From Desulfobulbus propionicus (GTDB lineage Bacteria; Desulfobacterota; Dissulfuribacteria; Dissulfuribacterales; DYLC01), in NCBI GenBank assembly GCA_020722285.1, contig DYLC01000006.1, positions 1-33,854 on the forward strand: a DNA stretch of 33,854 nt. Reading direction: 5' to 3'. Below, piece after piece: positions 14,955 through 33,800 of this stretch (position 1 is the first letter of the stretch; every line of letters begins with the position of its first letter). The notes beneath the pieces were generated by a model. That model was not told where the DNA came from, did not search any database, and saw only the letters and a program-made list of their open reading frames with translations. The position numbers and the translations under genes were made by a program.

Positions 14955-15308
14955 ATGATGAGGTGTTTTTGTAATATGGATATATTTGCGCTTCATGCTG
15001 AGTTTTGTGCAATTTTTTCCTCTGAAATCAGGCTTCGCATCATGTGGGCGTTGGGGGATGGGGAAAAAACGGTAACAGACCTTGCCAATGAGCTTGGAAT
15101 CAGCATTTCTAACACATCTCAGCATCTTGCAATAATGAGAAGTCGTGGGGCAGTGGAGACGCGGCGGGAAGGAAGAACGATTTTTTATCGGATAGCTAAT
15201 TTCAAATTTTTTCAAGGAGCAAGCCTGATACGAGAGGGATTGCTGGAAGAGTTTATGAAAAAAAGTCAGATGTCGGTTCAGAGTGAAATATATCTGTCCG
15301 CTGTGTAA
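14955..15308 (+). CDS. ArsR/SmtB-family winged-helix transcriptional regulator (start may be 14976)
   Basis: FSSEIRLRIMWALGDGEKTVTDLANELGISISNTSQHLAIMRSRGAVETRREGRTIFYRIAN is a typical ArsR wHTH; alternative ATG at 14976 has a better upstream GAGGTG. Confidence 0.9.
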   Translation: MMRCFCNMDIFALHAEFCAIFSSEIRLRIMWALGDGEKTVTDLANELGISISNTSQHLAIMRSRGAVETRREGRTIFYRIANFKFFQGASLIREGLLEEFMKKSQMSVQSEIYLSAV

Positions 15309-15320
15309 AAGGAGGAAAAT

Positions 15321-16898
15321 ATGCCAAAAATACGTTTGTTAGCAGGGCTATACGCCTGTGGTTTTGCTGGCCTGGCATCAACTTCCTGGGCTTTGGTCCA
15401 TGAGATAAAGTCAGAACAGGCAGCGCTGCTGACTACCGCAGATCACAGGAAGTTTCAGGCTCTCAATCAGGAGTTTCAATCAGGGCCGGAGGTGACTAAG
15501 GCATGCCTGAGCTGTCACACAGAGGCAGCCAAGCAGGTGCATAAATCAATACACTGGAGCTGGCAGTGGGAAAAGGCAGGAGGTCTGGGCAAAAAAAACG
15601 CTGTCAATAACTTCTGAGTGGCTGTTACCTCCAACTGGTGCAGGTGCACCAGCTGCCACGCTGGCTATGGCTGGAAGGATGCGGAATTTGATTTTTCCTC
15701 ACAGGAGAACGTGGACTGCTTAGTATGCCACGACAGCACAGGAAAATACAAGAAATTTCCAACTGACTGCGGACACCCCGCCTATGAAGAGAAAAAATTT
15801 ATGGACAAGGTGTTTCCAAAACTTGATCTCAAGGAAATAGCCCAGAATGTCTCAAATCCTGACCGCCGAAACTGTGGTGCTTGTCATTTTTTCGGCGGAG
15901 GAGGAAATGGAGTGAAGCATGGAGACCTTGACACCTCGCTTCTGGCCCCATCCAAGGCGCTGGATGTCCACATGGACAAGGCTGGCCTGAACTACTCATG
16001 CGGCAAATGCCACACCACTGAGGCGCATCACATCGAGGGCAGACATTACAGCGACCCTGCCTCAAACGATCACAACTCTGCAATGCCAAAAGACAACCGC
16101 AACAGAATAGCCTGTGAATCCTGTCACTCGGCAACTCCTCATAAAAATAACGAAAAGCTCAACCACCATACTGACAAAGTGGCATGTCAGACCTGCCATA
16201 TCCCTGCATTTGCAAGGGAAAACCCAACGGTCATGTGGTGGGACTGGTCAAAGGCAGGTAAAAAAGCAGAAGATGGAAAGCCTGTCAAGAGTAAGAATGA
16301 ACAAACAGGCGTAGAATACACTACTATGAAAGGCGAACAGCACTGGAAAAAGAATCAATCCCCTGACTATTACTGGTACAACGGCAGCATGACTTACATC
16401 AAGGCAGGAGACAGGATTGCATTAACTGCTCCTGTAAAGCTTTCAGTCCCTGCTGGCGGTCAAAATGATCCGAATTCCAGGATTGCTCCATTTAAAATAC
16501 ACAAAGGCATCCAGCCTGTTGATGAGAAAAATCAGACCATCCTCATCCCAAAACTCTTTGGAAAACCCGGTTCAGGCGCATACTGGGCCGATTATGACTG
16601 GCAAAAGGCCGGGGAGATCGGCATGGCTGCGGCAGGACTTCCATTTTCCGGCCATGTGGGATTCGCAGAGACCTGGACGTTCTGGCCCATAAACCACATG
16701 GTAGCGCCAAAGGAACAGTCTCTGAAATGTGACGCCTGCCACAGCGGCGTGGGGCGTCTCAAAGACCTTGGTGGCTTCTATATGCCTGGCAGGGACAAAA
16801 GCAGGGTTATTGACATGATAGGTTGGGGCCTTGTGGGACTTTATGGCATAGGAGCTGGACTTCACGGCATCTTGCGGCTTTTTAAGACAAAAAAATAG
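15321..16898 (+). CDS. Octaheme c-type cytochrome, tetrathionate reductase (OTR)-like family; predicted selenoprotein, Sec at TGA 15615-15617
   Basis: ORFs 15321-15617 and 15618-16898 are in the same frame, separated only by TGA. Joined product: signal peptide plus CLSCH, CTSCH, CLVCH, CGACH, CGKCH, CESCH, CQTCH, CDACH = 8 heme sites; sequence across the junction ...KKNAVNNF-U-VAVTSNWCRCTSCHAGYGWKD; SECIS-like hairpin downstream of TGA. Confidence 0.88.
15615..15659 (+). promoter_or_regulatory. Predicted bacterial SECIS element (UGA plus downstream stem-loop)
   Basis: TGA 15615-15617; lower helix GTGGC (15618-15622)/GCCAC (15655-15659); upper helix CTGGTGC (15635-15641)/GCACCAG (15646-15652), 7 bp perfect, loop AGGT. 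Apex TGC-AGGT-GCACC resembles the E. coli fdhF apex GGUUGC-AGGUCU-GCACC. Confidence 0.85.
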
Positions 16899-16908
16899 GA
16901 GAAATGCC

Positions 16909-17502
16909 ATGCAAAGGATATATCTTTACTCCAGATTTGAAAGATTCTGGCACTGGTCCCAGGCTGCTCTCATTATTCTTCTAATCCTGAGCGGCTTTGA
17001 GATACACGGGACATGGAACATATGGGGCTTTGAAAAAGCCCACAGCCTGCATGTAATCAGCGCATGGGGGCTGACAGGCCTTGTGGCATTTGCCATATTT
17101 TGGCACTTCACTACTGGTGAGTGGAGGCAATACATCCCTACCTTTGAAAAACTCAAAGAGATGATCTCCTATTACACTGGTGGCATTTTTAAAGGCGAAC
17201 CCCACCCGTTTGAAAAGACCAAGGATAAAAAACTGAATCCGCTTCAAAGATGGGCTTATTTCAAGCTCAAGGTCATCCTGTTTCCTCTCCAGTTCATAAG
17301 CGGCTTTTTATTCCTGTATTACAATGACTGGAAGACGTTAGGCATAGACTTAACCCTTGAACCAGTGGCCTTGCTACATACCCTTGGCGGCTTTGCCTTT
17401 CTGGCGTTTCTGGTAATACATGCATATCTCACCACCACAGGCCATACACTTTTCAGCCATATAAAGGCCATGATAACAGGCTGGGAGACGACAGGCAGTT
17501 AA
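16909..17502 (+). CDS. Membrane cytochrome b (cytochrome b561/thiosulfate-reductase cyt b-like subunit)
   Basis: RFERFWHWSQAALIILLILSGFEIHGTW..., several TM segments with conserved His; immediately downstream of the octaheme cytochrome. Confidence 0.85.
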   Translation: MQRIYLYSRFERFWHWSQAALIILLILSGFEIHGTWNIWGFEKAHSLHVISAWGLTGLVAFAIFWHFTTGEWRQYIPTFEKLKEMISYYTGGIFKGEPHPFEKTKDKKLNPLQRWAYFKLKVILFPLQFISGFLFLYYNDWKTLGIDLTLEPVALLHTLGGFAFLAFLVIHAYLTTTGHTLFSHIKAMITGWETTGS

Positions 17503-18911
17503 ATTGGAAAAGTTTCACCATAGCCTGGCACTGTTACCTCTGTTTGAGGCAGAGCTGTTTGTATAGCATGCTTCAGGGATTTCAGGGCGTCAGGCTCTCC
17601 ATGAACTAGAAATACTTTTTTGGGCATAGCTTTTTTAGCAAATTCTACTAAATGATGCCTGTCAGCATGTGCTGAAAAGCCGTTGATTGTATAGATTTTT
17701 GCCTTAACCGCAACCTCTTCTCCAAAGATTTTGACAGGGTTTTCGCCATCGACTATCCTGCGGCCAAGGCTTCCCTGTGTCTGAAATCCAACAATTATAA
17801 GAGTGGTGTTTTCTCGCCATAGAAGGTGTTTGAGGTGGTGTTTGATGCGTCCGCCTGTCATCATTCCGCTGCCTGCAAGTATGATCTTTGGCCCAGTGAA
17901 ATTGTGAATCGCCCTTGATTCATCGATGGTTTCACTTAATATTAAACCCGGAAAAATGAATGGGGATGAGCGTTCTGTAAGTTGAACTTGTAATTTTGGG
18001 TCGCAAAAGGCACAGTGAGTATGGTAAAGTCTCGTGATGTTTATGGCCAAAGGACTGTTGAGGAATACTGGAATGTTCCTTGCAATTTTGCCTGTCTTTT
18101 TCAATAGGCCGATATGATACAGTATTTCCTGTGCCCTTTCAAGGGCAAAGGTAGGTATTAGCACAGATCCTTTCTTTTTAAGGGTGTGTACTATTGCCTC
18201 TTCAAACTCTAATACAGACTCTGCATAGCTTTTGTGCTCTCGATTTCCATAGGTTGATTCCATCACAAGCACATCAACTGACTGATTGGGTGAGGAAGGA
18301 TTTTTCACTACAGGTCTGTCTCCATCTCCGAGGTCGCCTGTGTAAAGCAGTTGTTTCACCCCCATGCCATCGCGCCCCTGATATTCTATGAAGGTTTGCG
18401 CTGAACCGAGTATGTGGCCTGCTTCGGAAAAGTGAAAAGAAAGGCGCACATCTTCTGACAGGGAAATAGGCGTGTCATATCCAACTGGCATGTCAAAAAA
18501 ATCCATGGAATAATAGACGTCTTCGGTGGAATATAGTGGCGCTGAGACCTCTATGCCTTTTCTTGCAAGCCTTCTTTTTTTCCAGTCGAACTCTTCCTTG
18601 TGAAGATGAGCAGCGTCGAGCAGAATGAGTCTTGCGATGTCTTTAGTGGGAGGCGTTGAGTAGATGTGTCCATGAAAACCATTTTTTACAAGTACAGGTA
18701 TCCTGCCACAGTGGTCAAGATGACCGTGGCTTAAAATAAGACCGTCCACCGCCTCAGCCCTGAAGGGAAAAGGTGCATAGTTTTGGCTTTCAACCTCCCA
18801 CTGTCCCTGAAACATGCCGCAGTCAAGGAGAAATGCTTTATGGTTGTTTTCAAAAAGGTGGCATGAACCTGTCACACCACCTGTCGCTCCATGAAAGGTT
18901 ATTGTAGTCAT
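17499..18911 (-). CDS. MBL-fold metallo-hydrolase, beta-CASP RNA exonuclease-like
   Basis: LSHGHLDHCGRIP metal motif, MESTYGNREH, GSGMMTGGRIKHHL, GFSAHADRHHL motifs. Confidence 0.93.
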   Translation of the reverse strand: MTTITFHGATGGVTGSCHLFENNHKAFLLDCGMFQGQWEVESQNYAPFPFRAEAVDGLILSHGHLDHCGRIPVLVKNGFHGHIYSTPPTKDIARLILLDAAHLHKEEFDWKKRRLARKGIEVSAPLYSTEDVYYSMDFFDMPVGYDTPISLSEDVRLSFHFSEAGHILGSAQTFIEYQGRDGMGVKQLLYTGDLGDGDRPVVKNPSSPNQSVDVLVMESTYGNREHKSYAESVLEFEEAIVHTLKKKGSVLIPTFALERAQEILYHIGLLKKTGKIARNIPVFLNSPLAINITRLYHTHCAFCDPKLQVQLTERSSPFIFPGLILSETIDESRAIHNFTGPKIILAGSGMMTGGRIKHHLKHLLWRENTTLIIVGFQTQGSLGRRIVDGENPVKIFGEEVAVKAKIYTINGFSAHADRHHLVEFAKKAMPKKVFLVHGEPDALKSLKHAIQTALPQTEVTVPGYGETFPI

Positions 18912-24053: not shown

Positions 24054-24210
24054 TAAAACTTGATGACCTCACAAAAAGTTGCCAACTGCCCAACTACTGC
24101 TATATTGTGCTGTATCCTTCGTCTTTGCGGCGTACAGGAAGTACGCTGCATTTCTTAGGCCTCAGGATTTGAGCGTTTTGTATTAGAAGATTTGTAACTA
24201 TCCAGTATAA
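24054..24210. repeat. MITE-like intergenic repeat, copy 2 (right end diverged)
   Basis: Core 24080-24152 matches copy 1 core (14682-14754) with a handful of differences; located just upstream of recB. Confidence 0.75.
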
Positions 24211-24253
24211 TGCCGAAAACGAACGAAAACCACCGTACTGTAACTATTCAGCT

Positions 24254-27200
24254 ATGCCCCAGGTTATGAATGCACTGAATTTACTTGAAGCGCCGCTGGA
24301 ATCCATCAATCTGATTGAAGCCAGCGCTGGAACAGGTAAAACATATACGATTTCCAACCTTTATCTCAGATTTATTCTGGAAAAAGGTCTGAGCGTGCAT
24401 GAGATTCTGGTGGTGACATTTACTGAAGCAGCCACCAAGGAACTTCGGGAGCGGTTGTGGACAATTCTTGATAAGGCTTATTGTTTGCTCTGCTCACAAG
24501 AACTTGACACAGCGTTAACCGGAGAAGGGCATATCAAGGCAATACTTCGCAATTTTTGTTCTTCAAATAAAGGCGGGATTGAGGCAGCTAAAAAACGCCT
24601 GCGACTGGCGGTTGTCAGTTTTGATGAGGCCGCCATCTTTACGATTCATGGATTCTGCCAACGAATGTTGAATGAAAACGCATTCGAGAGCAATCTTCCT
24701 TTTGATCTTGAACTGATTACGCAGGACTCGGATATGCTTCAACAGGTTGTCAATGATTTCTGGCGCAGGCTTGTGTTGAGAGAAGACCTGTATGTCCAGA
24801 CATTGCTTGCCAATGGCCTTTTATCTCTGGAAGACCTTTCATCGTTTGCAAAATCCATCACGAAAAAAGCGGATATCCGCCTGTCTGATGACTCAGACAG
24901 GGCTGTGGCAGTCAACGGTAATGCCCTTGCCGAGAAGTTGAAAGAGTGTTGGTTTTCCAATAAAGAACAAATAGTTGCAATTCTTAAAGACACTAAGAAC
25001 AATAAGCTTACCCGTAGCCAAGACAAGTATGCAATAGTTATAGTTGATCAGGACGTGCTGTGCTTTGATCGCATGACTGATAATTTTTTTCCGGCTGAGA
25101 AGATAAGAAAGTATGCGCAAACTACTCTTAATGATGCTGTCACACCTGCGCAAAAGGCCAAGGGCGTGTTGGCGATGTCTCATGATTTTTTTACCCTGTG
25201 TGATGAGTTTACAGGGATGCTTGATGATAAGCTTCTGGAGATAAAGCATGAGTTTTTTAGATATATCAAACAGGAGTTTCGTGCGCGCAAGCTTCAGCTT
25301 AATGTGCAGAGTTTTGATGACATCCTGCACAATCTCCGGCAGGCTTTGAGGGATGACAGGCATGGCAGCTTTCATAACTTGATTCGTTCCAGGTTCAGGG
25401 CAGTCATGATTGATGAGTTTCAGGATACGGATCCTGTGCAGTACGAGATTTTTCAAAGGGTTTTCATGCAGGATGGCCATAGGCATACTGTATTTCTCAT
25501 AGGCGACCCCAAACAATCTATCTATAAATTCCGTGGTGCTGATATTTTTGCCTATTTGAAGGCCAAGAAGCTTGTGGATACCTGCTGGACACTTTCCACT
25601 AATTTCCGTTCCGAGGCGGTTATGATAGATGCAGTGAATCATCTGTTCATTCAGCAGAGTGAAGCCAATGTATCCGCCCTTAATCCATTTCTCGAAGCTG
25701 ATATTCCCTATCTGTCTGTCAAGGCCGGAGGCGTTGCGGAAAAAAAAGGACGTCTGTTGGCAGAAGGTGCAGTTTCAGGGGCTGGACTGGAGGTTATTTA
25801 TCTTGAAAAATCAGATACTGCTTTTAATGCTGAAAGTGCCCGACGCGCTTCGGTTCAGGCGACTGCCTGCAAAATTCTGGAGTTGGTGAATCTTGGGCAG
25901 CAAGGCAGGATCAGATTTGTTTCAGATGAAGGTGCAATCAAACCCCTGCAACCATCAGACATTACAGTGCTGGTTCGCACACATGATGAGGCGTTGAGCA
26001 TTCAGAATGCCCTGCAGGATTTTGGCGTTCCAGGGGTGCTTCAAAGCACAGGCAACATCTTTGAATCTGAGGAGGCTGAACATTTTTTTTATTTTATGGC
26101 GGCAGTGGCAGAGCCTGGCGAGCATTCGCTTCGTCCATTTCTGCTGACTCCTTTTGTGAATAAAACCCTGGCTGAACTCAGGGATATTTCAGATGATAAG
26201 TTGCAGGATTGGCATCAGTTAATGATAGAGCTTCAGGGTCTGTGGAAACGCGAGGGATTCATGAGCATGTTCAGCAGGTTTATGTTCCGTGAAAAGATAC
26301 GAGAGCGCATCCTGGCAATGAAGGGCGGAGAGCGCATCATTACCAATATGCTGCATCTGGCAGAGCTTGTTCACAGGCAAAGCGCTGAATGCAGGCATGG
26401 GATGGATGGGCTGTTGAGCTGGCTCAATAAAATGATCACAGAGCCTGAGACAAGACCTGAACATGAGATTTATCTGGAGCGGGATGCTGATGCTGTCCAT
26501 ATCCTTACTGTTCATGCAAGCAAGGGGCTTGAGTTCAATGTCGTATTCTGTCCGTTTGAATGGAACAGACATTACGATCCATGGTGGCTCAAGGGCGCCA
26601 GTTCCATAGAATATTACAATCGCACGAAAGAAAGGTGGGAGCTGGATATTCAAAAAAATGGAGATGATTGGGTTAAGCATAAACAGAGCGTGTGGCGCGA
26701 GGAGCTGGCTGAAAATCTCAGACTGCTGTATGTCGCTGTTACCAGGGCCAGAAACAAATGCTATCTTGTAACCGGAGATATAAGGGACTGCCAGTTGTCT
26801 GCGCTCAATTACCTTCTTTGCGGCAAAAAGTTTTCTGATGTGGCAGTCTATTTGTCTGCCATGAAACCTGAAGGCAATGGTTCAACCGAGTTAGCGAAAC
26901 AACAGCTTGATGAGATGAAAAAAGGCCTTGAAGTCCTGACTGCTTCATCCAATGGTTTGATTTACATGCAAAAGATTGCAGAGCCTCAACAGAGACTTTC
27001 TGTCAATGGAAAATATGTCCAGAGGCCGGCCAGCAGAATGGAGCTTAGGCCTGCTTCTTTTGCCGCTGTCATTGAAACAGACTGGGGGGTTGGCAGTTTT
27101 TCATGGCTTGTAAGAGAGGTCAGTCATGGCCACAAACAAGCGGAACCTGTTAAAGTACATGAAGGTGCTGAAGAGGATTTAATAGCCACGCCTAATACAG

Positions 27201-33686: not shown

Positions 33687-33741
33687 ATCCAACGTTCAAG
33701 GTAACCGGCGGCAATGGAGCGCAGCGGAATTGCCGCCCGGT
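33687..33741 (+). repeat. 5' part of an attC-like site
   Basis: ATCCAAC (33687-33693) fits R' RYYYAAC; hairpin ACCGGCGGCAAT (33704-33715)/ATTGCCGCCCGGT (33729-33741) with one extra C; expected R'' GTTRRRY end not found. Confidence 0.4.
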
Positions 33742-33800
33742 GCGGACCCGCATGCCGGGTGGTGTGGGGGCGGGGGGAGGAAAACCCCCGGCTACCCGAT
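33731..33800 (+). mobile_element. 3' end of a group II intron (domain V and VI remnant)
   Basis: 33731-33764 TGCCGCCCGGTGCG-GACC-CGCATGCCGGGTGGTG folds as a 34-nt D5 (14 bp, tetraloop, 2-nt 3' bulge); followed by D6-like GGGGG...AAAACCCCCGGCTACCCGAT. No RT ORF in the window. Confidence 0.6.

Follow-up and report, generated by a model that had tools for sequence, protein, structure and literature searches.

An octaheme cytochrome c gene with an in-frame TGA in a Desulfobulbus propionicus genome: evidence for a selenocysteine-containing form of the OTR family

Within the window (the whole 33,854-nucleotide stretch that was analysed) two ORFs lie in one frame, at 15321-15617 (98 aa) and 15618-16898 (426 aa), and a TGA is the sole separator between them. 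This raises the question of whether the locus is a broken gene, a pair of genes, or a single gene in which the TGA is read as selenocysteine (Sec). A first-pass annotation had favoured a single gene for an octaheme cytochrome of the tetrathionate-reductase-like (OTR) family, and the boundaries it gave for the two ORFs agree with those found here. The features of the locus are listed in Table 1.

One protein across the TGA

The joined protein (P0001) contains eight CxxCH motifs (CLSCH, CTSCH, CLVCH, CGACH, CGKCH, CESCH, CQTCH and CDACH), one of them upstream of the TGA and seven downstream. Its N-terminus, encoded by the first ORF, is a signal peptide, and a single membrane helix is found at the C-terminal end of the second (about residues 495-524). 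As the first-pass annotation had argued, it is only by read-through that eight heme sites come to stand behind one export signal.

Membership of the OTR family, proposed from the heme motifs, was borne out by the TIGR04315 profile, which matched P0001 over its full length with 601.8 bits against a curated cut-off of 375 bits (residues 40-487, profile positions 1-440 of 440) and which spans the TGA. PF11783 also matches. Among solved structures the one sequence relative is the octaheme cytochrome of Shewanella oneidensis (PDB 1SP3), which aligned with P0001 through the TGA (E 2.8e-122). Since both TIGR04315 and 1SP3 match across the TGA, the arrangement of the two ORFs is not a matter of chance. 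An AlphaFold2 model of P0001 (mean pLDDT 84.6) was searched with Foldseek, and the one fold that matched significantly was again 1SP3, with TM 0.87 of target and E 1.1e-47.

The TGA is placed after heme motif 1 and ten residues ahead of the CTSCH of heme 2, and falls on the Cys of an NNFC motif in 1SP3, counted as residue 64 of that chain. In an alignment of 54 sequences (A2) each row has Cys or Sec at this column, as expected from the first-pass placement of the codon at a Cys/Sec position; homologs lacking a conserved Cys or Sec there, which that annotation had named as contrary evidence, were looked for among these rows and none was seen. All eight CxxCH motifs are invariant in A2, as is K199, which pairs with a Lys of 1SP3 that we take to be K153. 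Catalysis in OTR takes place at heme 2, which has a conserved Lys as its ligand (PMC11024163). The matching Lys in the window protein, the expected distal ligand, is K199. The putatively recoded position thus lies near the catalytic heme along the sequence.

The window protein thus shares with the S. oneidensis OTR (SO4144) the fold, the eight hemes, the Lys ligand of heme 2 and an N-N-F-(C/U) loop ahead of that heme. It differs in having a predicted Sec in place of Cys64, and in its C-terminal membrane helix and adjoining cytochrome b561, whereas the Shewanella protein has been described as soluble and periplasmic (PMC6449678).

Table 1. Positions of the predicted features at the octaheme cytochrome locus, numbered from the first letter of the window.
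Feature	Position	Strand	Remark
ArsR/SmtB-family regulator	14955..15308	+	NF033788 over cut-off
Predicted Sec-containing octaheme c-type cytochrome, OTR / TIGR04315 family	15321..16898	+	525 aa, read through TGA
In-frame TGA, predicted selenocysteine 99	15615..15617	+	opposite Cys64 of the S. oneidensis protein (1SP3)
Candidate bacterial SECIS hairpin	15635..15652	+	7-bp stem CTGGTGC / GCACCAG, loop AGGT; codons for W-C-R-C-T-S
Cytochrome b561-type membrane protein	16909..17502	+	PF01292

The TGA codon and a candidate SECIS hairpin among relatives

Sixty seven related loci from the genome collection were compared at this codon. The nearest three relatives (L001-L003, 59-69% identity) carry TGA there, and all other readable loci have TGC or TGT. 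When 395 genomes of the phylum were surveyed, 69 had a TIGR04315 match over the cut-off, and in 30 of these the match contained exactly one TGA. When the surveyed genes were read individually, the context of the TGA was NNF, NSF or NNY every time. Counting the window and L001, 32 distinct Sec genes were recognised, and these were set against 100 Cys homologs. A plain ORF call splits Sec-containing OTRs, which is what the first-pass annotation had anticipated of annotation pipelines.

A maximum likelihood tree, built from 129 proteins by a quick method with SH-aLRT support values, placed 25 Sec genes, that of the window included, in a clade consisting entirely of TGA forms (SH-aLRT 96). Four more Sec genes form a second, distant clade, and three occur singly within a clade of Cys forms. 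On this tree a minimum of four switches between Sec and Cys is needed. Moreover, both forms can be found together: G134 combines two Sec genes with a single Cys gene (L095, L140, L147), and G184 (L092, L138) and G331 (L093, L139) have one of each.

A candidate SECIS element begins 17 nt past the TGA, within the coding frame. All seven base pairs form at this place in 29/29 main-type Sec genes, compared with 0/100 Cys genes, and the loop in the former is AGGT or AGTT. One gene, L140, shows a two-sided compensatory change from C-G to T-A. The region of the hairpin encodes N-W-C-R-C-T-S with codons that are almost frozen: the mean frequency of the top codon is 0.95, and the value at 152 conserved codons elsewhere in these genes is 0.55 (p = 2.5e-5). 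Main-type Sec genes, for example, use AGG for the Arg without exception, whereas CGC is preferred in Cys genes. When each sequence was folded alone, the hairpin was not always seen at minimum energy, and conservation of its pairs relative to Cys relatives was therefore used as the test. The 60 nt after the TGA in the window itself adopt a different minimum-energy structure, so that the hairpin rests on conservation and not on energy. The hairpin, which formed no part of the first-pass annotation, is the strongest sequence evidence that the TGA would specify Sec.

The SECIS of E. coli fdhF is an in-frame hairpin after the UGA with G/U in its apical loop. The candidate in the window is likewise in frame after the UGA and has G/U in the apical loop; it differs from the fdhF element in its 7-bp stem, its 4-nt loop (AGGU) and its start 17 nt after the UGA.

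The isolated Sec genes L094, L095 and L121 carry another hairpin, GCAACGA-GGC-TCGTTGC, which encodes NEARCTS rather than NWCRCTS. There would accordingly be two unrelated types of candidate SECIS in Sec-OTR genes. Because the hairpin differs, a separate origin of Sec decoding is suggested for these three genes; loss of the main-type hairpin and its replacement is a conceivable alternative.

In-frame stop codons were also encountered in more distant sequences. L142 (G154:C98) and L143 (G268:C73) belong to an OTR-like octaheme group scoring about 199 bits to TIGR04315, which is under the cut-off. Their first heme motif is CX4CH, and a single in-frame TGA lies between hemes 1 and 2 (ETY-U-APPN / HSY-U-APPN), making a further Sec subfamily possible. 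L144 (G044:C15), a distant member of the OTR family at 179 bits and likewise under the cut-off, was scored as having one in-frame TAG.

Selenocysteine machinery and other readings of the TGA

The first-pass annotation made its case dependent on selA, selB, selC and selD in the same genome, a metagenome-assembled genome of 1.69 Mb in 100 contigs (90% complete). Three of these genes, selA, selB and selD, are present, each over its curated cut-off. The Rfam tRNA-Sec model gave no match over cut-off in this genome. A direct DNA search recovered the 3′ 48 nt of tRNA-Sec (selC) at positions 1-48 of contig C85, sharing 98% identity with the SeC(tca) tRNA from the related genome G328; the Rfam miss is explained by the contig edge, which cuts the gene so that its 3′ half starts at base 1. 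The intact gene is seen in the close relatives G328 and G156, and this assembly holds the 3′ half only. The absence of selB, selC and selD that would have told against Sec is thus not borne out, with selC represented by its 3′ half. Moreover, the selD gene has an in-frame TGA of its own (RAAG-U-AAK), and an FdhA-like molybdoenzyme gene outside the window (G000:C1, about 24091-26007) has another in the context CARV-U-HAPSV and is likely a further Sec gene. Since SelD and the FdhA-like gene both carry TGA, UGA recoding appears to be in use in this organism.

Either selA or tRNA-Sec was found in each of the 30 genomes with a Sec-OTR over cut-off. These genes are present in almost every tested genome of the phylum (selA in 76/80, selC in 74/80), and their co-occurrence with Sec-OTR is therefore necessary but not discriminating. 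In five genomes from outside the phylum, where only Cys-OTR was seen, no selA was found over cut-off.

Four other readings of the TGA were considered, and all were rejected by comparison with relatives. TGC and TGT are one base away from TGA, and a true nonsense mutation of the conserved Cys codon would leave a pseudogene with its ORF split and no recoding. Such a mutation is very improbable, given that the identical TGA occurs in 31 other genes which share 40-70% identity and are nearly all otherwise open, that conservation in A2 continues past the TGA, and that the hairpin with its frozen synonymous sites is confined to TGA genes. The same 31 genes make a base-call error very unlikely indeed: a sequencing or assembly fault could be imagined in a metagenome-assembled genome of 100 contigs, but independent assemblies share the codon, and a hairpin downstream is not expected from an error.

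A changed code or a suppressor could insert another amino acid, such as Trp. No point in favour of this was found in the genome; the rest of the window reads normally with Table 11, the aligned residue is always Cys and never Trp, and the genome has Sec machinery and other Sec genes, all of which make this reading scarcely credible. The presence of a start codon, GTG 15618, directly after the TGA would allow for two proteins, a short exported monoheme peptide and a heptaheme product. However, whereas the ATG at 15321 has a clear AGGAGG ribosome-binding site ahead of it, inspection of the sequence upstream of GTG 15618 revealed no evident one. The second ORF has no export signal and its product alone would stay in the cytoplasm, as the first-pass annotation had noted, and in Sec relatives the codon after the TGA is mostly ATC or ATT, so that two separate products are highly improbable. 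The TGA shared by relatives, the hairpin downstream and the Sec machinery of the genome together decide for selenocysteine: the two ORFs are very probably one gene, with UGA codon 99 decoded as Sec. Because the Sec form occurs in about 30 species and is accompanied by an RNA signal, what is called as a split gene would be one working gene.

Possible function and relation to known selenoproteins

A cytochrome b561-type gene follows the OTR gene here, as it does in almost every relative examined, whether Sec or Cys. Its best NCBIfam match is to a thiosulfate reductase cytochrome b subunit, under the cut-off of that model, and its product is likely a quinol dehydrogenase feeding the octaheme protein. 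An ArsR-family gene is found upstream of the Sec-OTR in the window, in L001-L003 and in L164 and L171, and probably regulates the OTR and cytochrome b pair. Further along the window, on the reverse strand at 17499-18911, is an MBL/beta-CASP nuclease gene whose best NCBIfam match is the type VII CRISPR Cas14 model (416 bits against a cut-off of 800); its product is probably an ordinary beta-CASP RNase. Near the window end (33731-33800, forward strand) lies a match to an Rfam group II intron domain, only just over threshold (43.3 bits, cut-off 40).

The joined gene would encode an OTR-family octaheme cytochrome c, located in the periplasm and anchored to the membrane, with UGA 99 decoded by SelB and tRNA-Sec under the direction of the hairpin just downstream. 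Electrons would pass from quinol through the cytochrome b561 partner to the octaheme cytochrome and on to an oxyanion of sulfur or nitrogen. In most relatives a thiol serves at the catalytic, Lys-ligated heme 2; here a selenol would take its place and help to reduce an S-S, S-O or N-O substrate, for example tetrathionate, nitrite or hydroxylamine. We consider the case for this substrate class and for the catalytic role of the selenol to be evenly balanced.

Eight residues after the Sec lies C107, which is present in 29/32 Sec forms and in 0/100 Cys forms. This residue may be a redox partner of the Sec; alternatively, its codon may merely be dictated by the stem of the SECIS. Three Sec genes have no C107, and it is therefore not essential for the Sec form. 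A more specific scheme, in which selenol 99 is catalytic at heme 2 and passes through a selenenyl-sulfur or selenenylsulfide intermediate with C107 as the resolving partner, is regarded as rather unlikely. If true, an octaheme respiratory enzyme would combine heme and selenol chemistry.

The first-pass annotation had left open whether Sec-containing members of this family were already catalogued. They are: in a review of May 2026, 'Tetrathionate reductase family octaheme c-type cytochrome, TIGR04315' appears among the selenoprotein families, and the review's table gives one Sec example, WP_331457571.1, marked 'GenBank annotated' (PMC13188914). The Sec form of the OTR family is thus already known from that listing. 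WP_331457571.1 resembles the window protein in its TIGR04315 family and its one Sec per protein, a likeness read from the table row. In the searched passages of the review, TIGR04315 is treated by that table row, and they hold no analysis of its distribution, SECIS or evolution. The same review lists another multiheme c-type cytochrome with one Sec, ExtKL (NF040886), as a selenoprotein family (PMC13188914); ExtKL is of a different family, and the NF040886 profile does not match the window protein. The literature searched yielded no further paper joining selenocysteine and the OTR / TIGR04315 family, and none mentioning Cys64 of OTR.

What is new relative to the review entry, as judged from sequence comparison, is the distribution of the putative Sec form (30 of 69 OTR-bearing genomes), the evidence for a SECIS and for two candidate types of it, the apparently repeated exchange of Sec and Cys, and the tie to a presumed active-site Cys. 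Natural Sec/Cys pairs at a single position near a catalytic heme occur in this family, some of them within one genome, and the benefit of selenium in multiheme catalysis is thereby directly testable. Sec-OTR may also help to find what OTR does in vivo.
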